From the NCBI GenBank assembly GCA_021806745.1, contig JAJZQS010000014.1, positions 1 through 37,762 on the forward strand: a stretch of DNA of 37,762 nt. Reading direction: 5' to 3'. The notes beneath the pieces are model-generated. The model was not told the origin of the DNA. It searched no databases and saw nothing but the letters and a program-made list of their open reading frames with translations. Source of the stretch: a bacterium (GTDB lineage Bacteria; Elusimicrobiota; Elusimicrobia; UBA1565; UBA9628). A program made the position numbers and the translations under genes. Of the stretch, positions 2,422 through 37,762 are shown in pieces. Within the stretch, counting starts at the first letter, position 1. The number at the start of each line of letters is the position of its first letter.

Positions 2422-3399
<978 letters not shown>

Positions 3400-32808: not shown

Positions 32809-33596
32809 CATTCTTCGCCGCGCTCGCGCTGATGACCGTCCCGGCCTTCGCCCAAAGCGCCCCCGACTCGTCTTACGACGCGCGCATCACCGCGGTCGCC
32901 GGCGAGGTCGCGGTCTACTCCGCCGCGAAACCCTCCGAACCCGCGCAGGCCGAGCCGGGGATGTTCCTGGAAGAGGGCGACCGCGTGGTCGTTTCGAGCG
33001 CCTCCAGCGCCGAGATCTCCTTCGACGGCAAAAGCCTCATCGATCTGGGCGAAAACGCCGACTTCACGCTGACGAGCCTGTCGCGCGCTCGCGCGGAGCT
33101 TTCCCTCGCGTTCGGCTCCCTCATCGCTAAAATTCAGAAACTCGGCGACGACAATCTGGAGGTGCGCACGCCCGCCGCCGTGGCCGCCGTGCGCGGCACG
33201 GAGTTCGGCGTGGACGCCGGCTCCGGCGGCGACGACGCCCACGTCGGCGTGTTCGACGAGGGCCGCGTCGAAGTCACGGGCCAAACGGGCGCGCAGGTGC
33301 TCACGGCCAACCAGGAGACTTCCGTGCGCCGGGGCGGCTCGCCCGAAGCGCCCCACCCGCTGCGTCGCTTCCTGGCGCGGCGCGCGGCGATGCGCGCCGC
33401 GCTGCGCCGCCTCGCCTTCGTGCGCGCGCATTGGCGGCGCGTCTCCGCCGCGCGGCGGCGAATGCTGCGCCGCCGCGCGTGGGCGCGCCTGCGCGCGCGC
33501 TGGCGCGCCCGAAAGGTTTTGCGCCGCCGCGCCGCGCGCCGAGCGCGCTCGAACCAGCGCGCGTGGCGTCGCCGCAAGGAAGGAGACCGCCGATGA
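32805..33596 (+). CDS. Exported FecR-domain protein with arginine-rich C-terminal tail
   Basis: A 263-residue protein in three parts. A signal peptide covers about residues 1-17 (MTFFAALALMTVPAFAQ). A FecR-like beta domain spans about 25-170: ARITAVAGEVAVYS, MFLEEGDRVVVSSASSAEI, SLIAKIQKLGDDNLEVRTP, AVAAVRGTEFGVDAG. The last 80 or so residues are an extreme Arg/Ala tail with little acidic charge (for example MLRRRAWARLRARWRARK). FecR domains occur in many envelope proteins besides sigma regulators; no sigma factor is near. The tail might bind LPS, teichoic-like polymers or nucleic acid; unknown. GTG start overlapping tyrS; end overlapping the mutase (ATGA). Confidence 0.82.
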   Translation: MTFFAALALMTVPAFAQSAPDSSYDARITAVAGEVAVYSAAKPSEPAQAEPGMFLEEGDRVVVSSASSAEISFDGKSLIDLGENADFTLTSLSRARAELSLAFGSLIAKIQKLGDDNLEVRTPAAVAAVRGTEFGVDAGSGGDDAHVGVFDEGRVEVTGQTGAQVLTANQETSVRRGGSPEAPHPLRRFLARRAAMRAALRRLAFVRAHWRRVSAARRRMLRRRAWARLRARWRARKVLRRRAARRARSNQRAWRRRKEGDRR

Positions 33597-35203
33597 GCGT
33601 CGTCGACAAGCCGGCGCCCGCCGCCGCCGAAGAACCCGTGACCCTGTCGGGCATCCCGATCAAGCGCGAGTACGGCCCCGAGGACCTCGCGGGACGCGAC
33701 CTCGCCGCCGAACTCGGCCGCCCGGGGCAGTTTCCGTTCACGCGCGGACTCAAGTCCAGCGGCTACCGCGTCACGCCGTGGACGATGCGCATGTTCGCCG
33801 GCCACAAGACGGCCAAGGACACCAACGAGCGCTTCAAGTACCTGCTCGCCCACGGCGAGACGGGCTTGTCGACCGCCTTCGACTTGCCCACGCTGATGGG
33901 CCTGGACTCCGACGACCCGCGCTCGCTCGGCGAAGTCGGCCGCGAGGGCGTGGCCGTGGACAGCCTGGCCGACATGGAGGTCCTCTTCTCCGGCATCGAG
34001 CTCGCCAAGGTCTCCACCTCCATGACGATCAACCTGCCTGCGCCGGTGATCCTGGCGATGTATCTGGCGGTGGCCAAGAAGCAAGGCGTGCCTTTCAAGC
34101 GCATCCGAGGCACCTGCCAAACCGACATCCTCAAGGAGTACATCGCCCAGAACGAGTATCTCTACCCCCCCGAGCCCTCGATGCGGCTCGTGCTCGACCT
34201 CATCGAGTACTGCGTGAAGGAAGTCCCGCGCTTCTACCCGATCTCGATTTCCGGCTACCACATCCGCGAAGCCGGCGCCGACGCGGTGCAGGAACTGGCG
34301 TTCACCCTCGGCGACGGACGCGACTACGTGGAGCGCCTGGTCAAGCGCGGCCTCGCCGTCGACGACTTCGCCTCGCAGCTCTCGTTTTTCTTCGACGTCC
34401 ACAACGACTTCTTCGAGGAGATCGCGAAGCTTCGCGCCGCGCGCTCGATCTGGGCCAAGCTGATGCGCGAAGAATTCGGCGCCAAGAGGGAAATTTCCTG
34501 GATGCTGCCCATGCACTGCCAGACCGCGGGCGTGAGCCTCACCGCCCAGCAGCCGCTCAACAACCTCGCGCGCGTGGCCTACCAGGCGATGGCGGCCGCA
34601 CTCGGCGGCACGCAGAGCCTGCACACGAACTCCTTCGACGAGGCGCTGGCCCTGCCCACCGACGAGGCGGTCATGCTGGCGCTGCGCACGCAGCAAATAC
34701 TCGCGCTTGAGACCGGCGTCACCGACACTCCCGATCCCTTCGGCGGCTCCTACTACCTGGAGACTCTCACCCGCGAAGTCGAGTCCCGCGCGCAGGCGAT
34801 CCTCGCCCGCATCCGCGAGCTCGGCGGGGTGGTGCCGGCCATCGAGAAGGGCTACTTCCACCGCGAGATCGCCGAGACCGCCTATCGGCACGAAATGGAG
34901 CTGTCTTCCGGGCGGCGCAAGATCGTGGGCGTCAACGCCTACGCCGCCGGCGCGGCCGCGCCGCCCATCCTCAAGATCGACCATGAAGTCGAACGCGGCC
35001 AGGTGCGCGGCCTCAAGAAGCTCAAGCGCGGCCGCGACTCGGCGCGCGTCGAGAAATGCCTCGCCCGGCTGCGCGACCTCGCGCGCGGCCAGACCAACCT
35101 GATGCCCGCCATCCTGGAAGCCGTCGAGGCCTACGCGACCGTCGGCGAGGTCACCTCCGCTCTCAAGGACGTGTTCGGCGAGTACCCGGTGTTCGGCGGA
35201 TGA
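33593..35203 (+). CDS. Acyl-CoA mutase large subunit (methylmalonyl-CoA mutase family, isobutyryl-CoA mutase-like)
   Basis: A 536-residue TIM-barrel subunit without the C-terminal B12-binding domain, so it needs a separate small subunit, not encoded in this window. The family blocks are clear: FPFTRGLKSSGYR, PWTMRMFAGH, TGLSTAFDLPTLMGLDSDDP, DILKEYIAQNEY, PPEPSMRL, SISGYHIREAGAD. Substrate residues differ from methylmalonyl-CoA mutase: Phe68 takes the place of Tyr89 and Gln186 that of Arg207 (P. shermanii numbering), with catalytic His223 retained. Phe/Gln is the pair of isobutyryl-CoA mutase, so the predicted reaction is isobutyryl-CoA to n-butyryl-CoA. ATG at 33593 follows a Shine-Dalgarno GGAAGGAG. 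Confidence 0.9.
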   Translation: MSVVDKPAPAAAEEPVTLSGIPIKREYGPEDLAGRDLAAELGRPGQFPFTRGLKSSGYRVTPWTMRMFAGHKTAKDTNERFKYLLAHGETGLSTAFDLPTLMGLDSDDPRSLGEVGREGVAVDSLADMEVLFSGIELAKVSTSMTINLPAPVILAMYLAVAKKQGVPFKRIRGTCQTDILKEYIAQNEYLYPPEPSMRLVLDLIEYCVKEVPRFYPISISGYHIREAGADAVQELAFTLGDGRDYVERLVKRGLAVDDFASQLSFFFDVHNDFFEEIAKLRAARSIWAKLMREEFGAKREISWMLPMHCQTAGVSLTAQQPLNNLARVAYQAMAAALGGTQSLHTNSFDEALALPTDEAVMLALRTQQILALETGVTDTPDPFGGSYYLETLTREVESRAQAILARIRELGGVVPAIEKGYFHREIAETAYRHEMELSSGRRKIVGVNAYAAGAAAPPILKIDHEVERGQVRGLKKLKRGRDSARVEKCLARLRDLARGQTNLMPAILEAVEAYATVGEVTSALKDVFGEYPVFGG

Positions 35204-35889
35204 ACGTCGCCGTCGCGGCCGAGGACGCGCGACTGCGCGAGCGCCTGGGGGCTCTGCTCGTCGGGCAGGGCTACCGCGTGCAGCCGGTGGCCTCGCTGGC
35301 CCAGGCCGCCGCGGTGCTGCGCCAAGCGCGCCCGCACATGCTCGTCATCGCCCACGAAGGCGGAGAGGCGCCGGTGACGGCCGCGTTGCGGCGCCTGAGA
35401 GAAGCGCCCGAACTGCTGGGGCTTCCCGTGCTGTGCTTCGATCCCAAGGCCACCGCCTTCCAGAGCGTGGCCATGCTCGACGCCGGCGCCGACGATGTGA
35501 TCCACCGTCCGTTCCAGGCGCCGGTTTTTCTGGCCCGCGTGCGCACGCTGCTGCGCCGGGCGGTCTGGTCCGGCGAGGCCCCGGAGCAGACGGTCACGGT
35601 CATCAACGCCGGGCCCGTGGAACTGCGCCTGGTCGCGCGCCAGGCGCTGGTGGGCGGGCGCCCGGTGGAGTTGACCCGTCTGGAGTTCGACTTGCTCGCG
35701 CACCTGATGAAGAACGTCGAGCGCGCCTTCAAGCGCGAGGAACTGCTCTCCGCGGTCTGGAATTACCCGTCGGGCGTGGAGACGCGCACGCTCGACAAGC
35801 ACATCGAGTCCCTGCGTCGAAAGCTCGGCGCCGCGGGCCCGCGCATCGAAACCGTGCACGGCATCGGCTACCGCTTCGCCGCCGCCTGA
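35200..35889 (+). CDS. OmpR-family response regulator with degenerate receiver domain
   Basis: A 229-residue regulator. The C-terminal winged helix is well kept: PVELTRLEFDLLAHLMKN, FKREELLSAVW, SGVETRTLDKHIESLRRKLG, IETVHGIGYRF. The receiver domain is not: the phospho-acceptor Asp is replaced (Ala51 in MLVIAHEGG), only Glu8-Asp9 remain of the acidic pocket, and the conserved Lys before Pro-Phe is Arg (DVIHRPF). It therefore probably works without phosphorylation, and no histidine kinase lies nearby. ATG overlaps the mutase stop (ATGA), so it may control or be controlled with that operon. Confidence 0.9.
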   Translation: MNVAVAAEDARLRERLGALLVGQGYRVQPVASLAQAAAVLRQARPHMLVIAHEGGEAPVTAALRRLREAPELLGLPVLCFDPKATAFQSVAMLDAGADDVIHRPFQAPVFLARVRTLLRRAVWSGEAPEQTVTVINAGPVELRLVARQALVGGRPVELTRLEFDLLAHLMKNVERAFKREELLSAVWNYPSGVETRTLDKHIESLRRKLGAAGPRIETVHGIGYRFAAA

Positions 35890-35932: not shown

Positions 35933-37093
35933 CTAGGCGAGTCCCGGGAAAAGCACGGCCGACATTTCCGTCGTGATGCTCAGTCTCAGCGGGCCGTAGG
36001 TCGATTCACTCCGGACGATCTTCGCTTCGAACAACTCCTTGATGATGTCCGTGGCGCGTCTTTGCTTTACATCGGCGATTTCCTGAACCTGGGCGCGCGG
36101 GATTTCCCCCTGCAACAGCAACCGTCCCATGACCTTGGCCCCGGCTTTCGAGATGATCTTGTTCTTCCGCAGCCCCTCGATGTAATGGTCATAGCGCCGT
36201 TCCAATTCCGCGAGCTTGAGGGTCTCATCCATGTAGCTGATCTGATCCTTGCAGCACTCCAGAAAGTAGGTGCAGAACTGGGTCAGGTTTTCTTCCGAGA
36301 GCGGGCCTCGGCCATCGAGGGAGTTTCGGGGCCTCTGATCGGCCCAATTCAGGTTCGCATCGTAATCCGGCCTGTTCCTTGCGAAGGCGCGGCTCACGGT
36401 CCAGAGCATGGTTGTTCCCATTCCGATCTTGTAGGCGTAGGCGATGCTAAAAAGCCGAGCGACTCTTCCGTTGCCATCCGGGAATGGGTGAATCCAAAGA
36501 AATCTATGGTGGGAGGATGCCATGCCGAGCAGCTTCCGCGAGCCCACCAGTCTCTCGGGGCTCAGTGCTTGCTCGAACTTGCCGAGGTAAGAGCGGACTT
36601 CGTCGCGGGTAACCAGTGACGTGTCATGGCGGCCGACGCTGATTCCCCGATCCCTCAGCTCCCCGGGAATCACGGGAACTGGTTCGCCGCTCACGGTCGT
36701 GGCGAAGCGCATGTCTTCGGGGAGTCGGTTGTAGAACTGCTCATGAATCCAGCAGAGGAAGCCTTCGGAGCAAATCTTGAGATCGGGCTCAGTCTTGAGC
36801 CGATGGACCATGGCCTCTTGGACTTCGATATGGGCTAGGTGCTCTTTCTGGTAGTTGCGGGCGCTCTTATCCTTGGAGAAGTGCTTGTTGAGGGCCGCTT
36901 CGATGTCCTTGAGCTTCGAGGGATTCCCCTCCATGGCGTTGGTGTAGTAGCTGTTCACCTTGACCATGAGGCGGGCGACCTCTTCTAGAATCAGGGGGGT
37001 GATCCCTCGACCCAGGGCGGCCGAGGCAGTCGTCACGTCCATAATGAGCTGGTCCAATTCCGGAGGAACTCGAGATGGAAGGACCGGGAACAC
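35933..37093 (-). CDS. Fic-domain protein (AMP-transferase family), class II type
   Basis: A 386-residue Fic protein. An N-terminal helical part contains the inhibitory motif T-x3-E-G at Thr51-Glu55-Gly56 (YYTNAMEGN), placing it in class II. The catalytic motif HPFPDGNGRVAR lies near residue 200, complete with the His. A winged-helix-like C-terminus (about 310-386) contains VQEIADVKQRRATDIIKEL. Fic enzymes usually attach AMP to hydroxyls of target proteins. GC content is visibly lower than in the surrounding genes and the 5' flank is AT-rich, suggesting horizontal transfer. GTG start at 37093, six bases after a -10. Confidence 0.92.
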   Translation of the reverse strand: MFPVLPSRVPPELDQLIMDVTTASAALGRGITPLILEEVARLMVKVNSYYTNAMEGNPSKLKDIEAALNKHFSKDKSARNYQKEHLAHIEVQEAMVHRLKTEPDLKICSEGFLCWIHEQFYNRLPEDMRFATTVSGEPVPVIPGELRDRGISVGRHDTSLVTRDEVRSYLGKFEQALSPERLVGSRKLLGMASSHHRFLWIHPFPDGNGRVARLFSIAYAYKIGMGTTMLWTVSRAFARNRPDYDANLNWADQRPRNSLDGRGPLSEENLTQFCTYFLECCKDQISYMDETLKLAELERRYDHYIEGLRKNKIISKAGAKVMGRLLLQGEIPRAQVQEIADVKQRRATDIIKELFEAKIVRSESTYGPLRLSITTEMSAVLFPGLA

Positions 37094-37099
37094 AAGTGA

Positions 37100-37128
37100 A
37101 GTTTAGCTTTAAAAATGCTACTTGTCAA
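37100..37128 (-). promoter_or_regulatory. fic promoter
   Basis: TTGACA (37128-37123) and TAAACT (37105-37100) are exactly 17 bases apart. The GTG start at 37093 follows the -10 by six bases, so the message is probably leaderless; there is no Shine-Dalgarno. Confidence 0.7.
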
Positions 37129-37136
37129 TGCTACTT
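37114..37136. repeat. Tandem AATGCTACTT repeats over the fic -35
   Basis: AATGCTACTT occurs at 37114-37123 and 37127-37136 with three bases between (13-base period). The copies flank and overlap the -35 hexamer, a typical repressor-site position. The Fic protein carries its own C-terminal winged-helix-like domain and could bind here; this is inference. Confidence 0.55.
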
Positions 37137-37280
37137 AAATATCGAATAAATTTATTTTTTATAACGATTTATATATTTACAAAGCGTTATGTTGTATTAT
37201 AAAGTGCTAGATAAAAGTGCTCCATTGGCGTATTGTTCAAGATGGCCCCGTCTCGTTTTGCAGTTAGAGCTAGCTGGCAG
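37137..37280. other. AT-rich non-coding stretch
   Basis: No gene is seen. The stretch is far richer in A and T than the rest of the window. It holds an inverted repeat ATAACG/CGTTAT (37161-37166 and 37185-37190, loop of 18) and a direct repeat AAAGTGCT (37201-37208 and 37214-37221, 13-base period). It looks like imported or decayed sequence between fic and the transposase remnant. Confidence 0.5.
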
Positions 37281-37410
37281 GCCGCGGCGGTGCGGGTGCC
37301 GTTGCCCAAGCCGACGGGACCGAATCAGTTCTGGTCGATCGACTTCGTATGGGATTGGCTTACGCAACGGACGACGGCTGAAGATGCTGACGATCATGAG
37401 TGAATATAGG
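37281..37410 (+). pseudogene. Remnant of an IS3-family transposase (OrfB)
   Basis: One frame reads RVPLPKPTGPNQFWSIDFVWD (in pieces: PLPKPTGPNQ, WSIDFV), matching the PNQxWSxDFV block with the first catalytic Asp of IS3 transposases. About four codons later the match continues one base out of frame as GRRLKMLTIMSEYR, corresponding to the usual G-R-x-x-x-LTI-x-DEYTRE block. The fragment is frameshifted, both ends are missing and no terminal repeats are evident. It is dead. Confidence 0.7.
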
Positions 37411-37577
37411 CCAAGGCAAGGCGAGATGCGCCCTCTGCCATCCGCCGCCGCTGTTCACCGACGGCTCGTTTCACAATGTCGGAGTGGGCATGCAGCGCGC
37501 CCCCGCCCGGACCCCGGCCGCGCCGCGATCACCGGGCGCAAGGGGGACTTCGGCGCGTTCAAGACACCGAGCGATTC
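37409..37577 (+). pseudogene. Remnant of a di-haem cytochrome c peroxidase / MauG-family gene
   Basis: One frame reads GQGKARCALCHPP, then LFTDGSFHNVGVG: a haem-binding CxxCH and the downstream block of the second haem domain of bacterial cytochrome c peroxidases. The match then continues in another frame as PDPGRAAITGRKGDFGAFKTPS, the PDxGR...GAFKTP block of the same family. So a fragment of about 55 codons with a frameshift near 37500 survives, lacking both ends. It directly follows the transposase remnant. Confidence 0.7.
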
Positions 37578-37597
37578 CGCACGCCTCTTCCCCATGG

Positions 37598-37603
37598 TAG
37601 AAT
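37598..37603 (+). promoter_or_regulatory. Candidate -10 element (TAGAAT) of the kamA-like gene
   Basis: TAGAAT ends five bases before the ATG at 37609. TTCCGC 17 bases upstream is a poor -35. There is no Shine-Dalgarno, in line with other leaderless-looking starts here. Confidence 0.4.
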
Positions 37604-37608
37604 GAACC

Positions 37609-37762
37609 ATGGCCAAGAAAGTCAAGGCGGACCCAAACCGACAGCCGTTTCACTATCCGCTCAAGCGCGAGTTCGTGGAGCCGGATTGGACGCGCCTGCC
37701 CGGCTACAAGGGCGTGACCAAGGCCGAATGGGAAAGCGCGCTTTGGCAGCGCCAGCACTCGA
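37609..37762 (+). CDS. kamA: KamA-family radical SAM aminomutase, N-terminal part (runs off the window)
   Basis: The first 51 codons are visible: a basic start (MAKKVKADPNRQ), then FVEPDWTRLPGYKGVTKAEW and ESALWQRQHS. The W-x-R-x-PGY/W...T-x-x-EW...WQR sequence is the conserved N-terminal region of lysine 2,3-aminomutase and its relatives, ahead of the radical SAM cluster motif CxxxCxxC, which would lie beyond the window. Substrate (lysine, glutamate or other) cannot be judged from this part. The gene starts 31 bases after the peroxidase remnant. Confidence 0.75.
   Translation, partial: MAKKVKADPNRQPFHYPLKREFVEPDWTRLPGYKGVTKAEWESALWQRQHS

Follow-up and report, generated by a model that had tools for sequence, protein, structure and literature searches.

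Among described Fic proteins, CccR from Yersinia pseudotuberculosis (PDB 7XUX) associates a Fic domain with a C-terminal HTH domain and, in the available text of its report, represses its own promoter near the -35/-10 region via this C-terminal domain, the footprint being an inverted repeat, i.e. AGATAATCAT-N26-ATGATAATCT (PMC9755527). This work on autorepression has since been cited in a study of a different Fic protein (PMC10628234).

SoFic (PDB 3EQX, 3ZCN; NCBIfam NF046030) also has a Fic domain, in a similar overall fold to that of the Fic protein considered here. Regarding the degraded genes lying next to the latter, the closest systems are the MauG/CCP-type di-haem enzymes (TIGR03791, PF03150), which carry two CxxCH motifs in one open frame, and the IS3 family, where a complete element consists of OrfA, OrfB and terminal inverted repeats.

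The stretch of DNA analysed, hereafter the window, is 37,762 nucleotides long and corresponds to the whole contig C48 of the Elusimicrobiota genome G000 (2.78 Mb, 183 contigs). We consider it quite probable that its right-hand end is a composite joint where gene debris adjoins an intact fic module, with Fic most likely repressing its own expression via two promoter boxes, DNA binding, repression and looping being putative steps of this reading.

A probable rearrangement joint between a response regulator and kamA

33593-35203: mutase-like gene (presumably so, to judge from its sequence), immediately preceding the response regulator gene
35200-35889, forward strand: OmpR/PhoB-type response regulator gene, left flank of the joint (NCBIfam PhoB, E = 1.9e-37)
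37283-37398, forward strand: internal piece of an IS3 OrfB (DDE transposase), frameshifted, 73% DNA identity to L028 with one indel
37421-37581, forward strand: piece of a MauG/CCP-type di-haem enzyme, C-terminal haem domain, frameshifted, 71% DNA identity to L023 with indels
37598-37603, forward strand: -10 hexamer of kamA, TAGAAT, 5 nt 5' of the ATG
37609-37762, forward strand: 5' end of a kamA-like radical-SAM gene, 459 aa when joined to contig C40 (presumably kamA, as named in the earlier note)

An earlier note on this DNA had recognised two unrelated dead gene pieces lying head to tail, and DNA alignments to both families, each frameshifted, bear this out. As 22 unassigned bases (37399-37420) part the two alignments, the overlap by one or two bases that had also been reported is not demonstrated. 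The IS3 piece resembles sister-genome IS3 OrfB in DNA and protein: its reference, L028, is the IS3 OrfB of sister genome G011, the whole-genome search gave E = 4.6e-12, and the protein match with the copy of G005 is spread across two frames. The intact relative matches the IS3 transposase model NF033516 (E = 7.1e-72), and intact elements of the same type occur in G011, G005 and G037, while no match to IS elements of its subgroup is left in G000. Compared with a complete element, only internal OrfB could be aligned here, over some 115 frameshifted bases; OrfA is missing, and neither element ends nor target duplications were noticed.

The peroxidase piece has as reference an open MauG-like gene of G010 (L023) and was retrieved at E = 2.8e-14 in the whole-genome search. 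With the C-terminal haem domain of MauG/CCP-type enzymes it has the blocks CxxCH, FTDG.FHNVGVG and GAFKTP in common; instead of two CxxCH motifs in one open frame, however, its ~160 bases hold a single CxxCH across two frames (CALCH...FHNVGVG in frame 2, PDPGR...GAFKTP in frame 1), and the N-terminal haem domain is missing. The profile similarity on which the earlier note had staked both fragments was obtained for the peroxidase piece, whose frame 2 matches TIGR03791 (MauG) at E = 1.5e-6, but not for the IS3 piece, for which neither Pfam nor NCBIfam gave a profile match and which is recognised by its DNA and protein similarity. The Pfam results, no match for the IS3 piece and E = 0.28 only for the peroxidase piece against CCP_MauG, are explained by the length of the pieces and by their position, i.e. 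the C-terminal haem domain for the peroxidase.

Regarding the origin of the joint, 37 loci were compared, namely 10 mutase-regulator and 17 kamA loci of sister genomes together with 10 other fic loci, several of them short or ending at contig ends. The mutase-like and response regulator genes stand together in all 10 loci of the first set, none of which has a match to kamA, fic, MauG or IS3; likewise, none of the 17 sister kamA loci has one to fic, the mutase, MauG or IS3, although a 37% paralogue of the regulator is present in one, and similarity of the window to sister kamA loci starts at ~37595. In several sisters, a gene starting ...LRTPFGEV lies 3' of the regulator, and its best homologue in G000 (62%) is found on contig C171, adjoining what we take from their sequence to be cytochrome-oxidase-like genes; in many sisters, an SDR gene is divergent from kamA, with its best G000 homologue (73%) on contig C110. 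The exact IS3-peroxidase join had no match among the genome contigs searched, a result of little weight, as the window's own records were possibly excluded from them. Since the two blocks are separate in the sisters and the best G000 homologues of their neighbours lie on C171 and C110, the joint would be specific to the present lineage, as far as the compared lineages go, and the earlier description of the site as a join holds in the sense of a rearrangement joint.

The mutase-regulator block on the left and the kamA block on the right would thus have been brought together, with the fic module and the two decayed pieces between them. The core promoter of kamA was kept, since its -10 box sits just beyond the debris; the 3' end of the peroxidase piece lies ~20 bases upstream of this box and so does abut the kamA promoter, as had been claimed. 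The fic module is intact, including its regulatory DNA up to ~37222. To judge from their sequences, the IS3 and MauG-type pieces are non-functional debris of an old rearrangement joint, a matter of ordinary genome decay.

It had been proposed that a respiratory or H2O2-detoxifying gene was lost here, in other words that IS3 insertion and deletion destroyed an ancestral peroxidase gene where it stood, fic arriving via the same IS activity. Such a history accords with both pieces lying head to tail at the joint and with the intact IS3 elements mentioned above, but we judge it distinctly unlikely: none of the 27 sister loci of kamA or the regulator has a peroxidase, no IS3 or MauG piece adjoins fic at the 10 other fic loci, and G000 has its own intact MauG-like gene elsewhere. 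The intact peroxidase anticipated at the corresponding interval of sister genomes was found beside neither kamA, the regulator nor fic in any of the 37 loci. While fic does sit at the same place, its arrival by IS activity finds no echo at the other fic loci nor in G000, from which the IS subgroup is absent. Attractive as it may be, the notion that a defence against peroxide was lost is not supported.

The MauG-like gene of G000 is a 364-aa open frame on contig C126, adjoining what is presumably, to judge from its sequence, an aldehyde-dehydrogenase-like gene, as in G017; with this copy intact, the loss of every MauG-like gene from G000 was rejected. The peroxidase piece gives no DNA match to the C126 gene at E 0.01 and is nearer to a second, sporadic paralogue (G010:C63); MauG-like genes are present in 23 of 58 related genomes.

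That the debris joint arose as a chimera when the metagenome bin was assembled is very improbable. The contig does stop 154 bases into kamA, where 37636-37762 overlaps exactly, over 127 bases, with another contig end (G000:C40:7333-7459), which denotes a branch in the assembly graph; this overlap, however, begins at 37636, which places the branch 27 bases into kamA and 3' of the scar. A single contig spans the debris together with the -10 box and codons 1-9 of kamA, these codons matching sister kamA genes. A rearrangement joint in the genome itself is the preferred reading.

Three minor observations concern the flanks. The overlap between C48 and C40 inside kamA may reflect strain variation. 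By eye, the window and each of the 19 sister loci inspected (L002-L020) have a TANNNT hexamer 5-8 nt 5' of the start codon of kamA, a conserved position which suggests a leaderless mRNA common to the group. Beside the LRTPFGEV gene of G000 (L133), two predicted frames 1 kb apart (1539-2210 and 2541-3212) have identical first 90 residues, possibly as a result of a recent tandem duplication.

The Fic protein

35936-37093, reverse strand: fic, encoding a 386-aa Fic protein (Pfam Fic, E = 1.2e-13) with TNAMEG, the motif HPFPDGNGRVAR and a C-terminal winged-helix domain

The Fic motif HxFx(D/E)GNGR is found as HPFPDGNGR at residues 202-210. In Fic proteins, the N-terminal inhibitory motif is (S/T)xxxE(G/N); the TNAMEG at residues 51-56 fits it and is invariant in the 10 homologues aligned. 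In the AlphaFold2 model (pLDDT 88.3), the C-terminal winged-helix/HTH domain is predicted with high pLDDT as helices and a strand between residues 294 and 381. The nearest solved structure is 7xux, i.e. CccR, which itself has a C-terminal winged-helix/HTH domain (profile search E = 3.2e-17; Foldseek TM 0.74-0.75 over 397-402 columns), so that the association of a Fic domain with a C-terminal HTH domain is common to both proteins. Secretion and FtsZ modification belong to the CccR side of this comparison, the likeness to the window Fic lying in sequence and predicted fold. Despite the fold shared with SoFic, the score against the SoFic model NF046030 is 34.8 bits for a cut-off of 550.

The fic promoter and its twin boxes

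37100-37105, reverse strand: -10 hexamer of fic, TAAACT, 6 nt 5' of the start codon, a leaderless layout as read from the sequence
37115-37133, reverse strand: proximal putative operator box, with two TAGCAT half-sites, at -40 and -27, spaced by 13 bp
37123-37128, reverse strand: -35 hexamer of fic, TTGACA, overlapped by the proximal box
37134-37203, reverse strand: AT-rich spacer, GC 0.16 at -108 to -46, conserved in length and not in sequence
37204-37222, reverse strand: distal putative operator box, 89 bp away from the proximal one, with half-sites GAGCAC/TAGCAC, at -129 and -116, again spaced by 13 bp

The region upstream of fic departs strongly in composition from the rest of the window (GC 0.29 in 37094-37250 vs. 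0.70 in 1-35932). The earlier note had taken the whole of 37137-37608 as scar; its first part, from 37137 to ~37222, is instead the fic promoter. In the phylum, fic is found in 10 of 340 genomes (profile search, E 1e-60), one of these matches being partial. Eight of the nine full-length Elusimicrobiota orthologues have TAGCAY at about -27 and again between -116 and -119, i.e. 89-91 bp apart, a pair which only 0 to 16 of 5000 shuffles reached, depending on the promoter. By eye, most orthologues have a weaker second half-site 13 bp 5' of either TAGCAY, the proximal box overlaps the -35 hexamer and the promoter spacer, and the -10 hexamer stands ~5-6 bases 5' of the start. The DNA between the boxes has a GC content of 0.08-0.24 across these orthologues, in GC-rich hosts; its identity from one orthologue to another (0.37) is close to that of shuffled sequences (0.35), length and AT content being kept. 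The fic gene of G014 (L107) has the proximal box only, both the AT-rich spacer and the distal box being absent, and so provides a natural single-box variant.

Among 58 genomes, the two-box pattern, though derived from the same orthologues it then matched, occurs in eight, once in each and always at fic, and is absent from all those lacking a full-length fic; a reversed control pattern gave two matches in the 58 genomes, one of them in G000. When promoters were scanned singly for 16-mer repeats, most Elusimicrobiota promoters showed no significant repeat and a few did; the boxes emerged only from the comparison between orthologues. An identity of the boxes with the ends of a mobile element was rejected, as the proximal box lies within the core promoter.

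The boxes at the fic promoter are a well-supported comparative finding, from which we infer Fic binding, repression and looping. Fic would use its C-terminal winged helix to bind the two boxes, and would thereby repress its own leaderless promoter, the AT-rich spacer probably looping between them. The operator of CccR, in the available text, is an inverted repeat with an N26 spacer, whereas the fic promoter of the window carries direct repeats, in two boxes separated by an AT-rich spacer. As the boxes are direct repeats present in two copies at a fixed distance, unlike the CccR site, we propose autorepression in the manner of CccR but with another arrangement of the operator; by analogy, we infer that Fic may act on its own gene through a new operator design. 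No prior description of direct-repeat Fic operators was recognised among the entries listed by one open-access library.

The twin boxes could instead be bound by another factor, such as an unlinked regulator or a nucleoid protein that silences AT-rich foreign DNA. The extreme AT-richness of the spacer in GC-rich hosts speaks for such a factor, as does the putative status of Fic binding, but the box pattern is restricted to genomes with a full-length fic (8 of 58) and the sequence of the boxes varies with the protein between phyla, which makes this explanation rather unlikely. A host-wide silencer in particular fits poorly, because the pattern tracks one gene, fic. Autorepression by Fic itself is favoured.

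Homologues beyond the Elusimicrobiota

Outside the phylum, ATGCGCAC is repeated at -152 and -50 in a homologue (53% identity) under the label Deltaproteobacteria, and that of 'bacterium nzgw234' (47% identity) has an exact 16-bp direct repeat at -136 and -48, i.e. 88 bp apart, reached by none of 100 shuffles. The Verrucomicrobiia homologue L147 (37%) has no half-site upstream and was dropped from the later spacer, shuffle and four-half-site tests. No fic homologue was found in viral contigs and phages. On plasmids, homologues occur at ~35% identity and 234 plasmid records have a match of any kind, of which 20 were examined, picked for taxonomic spread.

Several of these 20 plasmid homologues have CGGCAA half-sites 12-13 bp apart, and the CGGCAA boxes are 69 bp apart in the Methylobacterium, Mesorhizobium, Bradyrhizobium Ash2021 and BTAi1 plasmids. 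In the alphaproteobacterial subset of 12 plasmids retained for counting (leaving aside Bradyrhizobium guangzhouense, Terrarubrum, Acidiphilium, Chondrocystis, two Hymenobacter, Sulfurimonas and Acinetobacter), paired CGGCAA half-sites stand at fic in 11, and 15 of the 27 paired matches present in 3.08 Mb fall within 140 bp upstream of fic, as judged against the plasmid annotations. As the CGGCAA pattern was picked after viewing the promoters, its presence at fic is no independent test; its rarity elsewhere is. With a strict four-half-site statistic, at most 1 of 60 shuffles equalled the promoter in 14 of 31 cases and more did so in the other 17, including G017, G003, G036, Sulfurimonas, Acinetobacter, Acidiphilium and one of the two Hymenobacter. 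The two-box design is therefore not universal.

The distance between boxes, 69 bp in several rhizobia-type plasmids, is 89-91 bp in the Elusimicrobiota. Since the half-site differs between phyla, a co-evolution of box and protein is suggested. A broader proposal, offered tentatively and at somewhat less than even chances, is that a widespread group of Fic proteins with a winged-helix HTH domain, from Elusimicrobiota chromosomes to alphaproteobacterial plasmids, would autorepress, each bridging a pair of direct-repeat boxes set a constant distance apart across AT-rich DNA, with box sequence co-evolving with the protein and geometry kept, the enzyme acting as its own transcriptional antitoxin. 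If true, the shared two-box geometry would turn the isolated case of CccR into a family rule, and single-gene Fic systems devoid of a separate antitoxin would gain short operators amenable to testing.

As for the surroundings of the plasmid genes, the fic homologue adjoins the replication gene repC in the Phaeobacter and Thioclava plasmids (L166, L170). In the plasmid of Bradyrhizobium Ash2021 (L160), it has two IS256 transposase genes and an IS1595 gene on its flanks, in an arrangement resembling a composite transposon.
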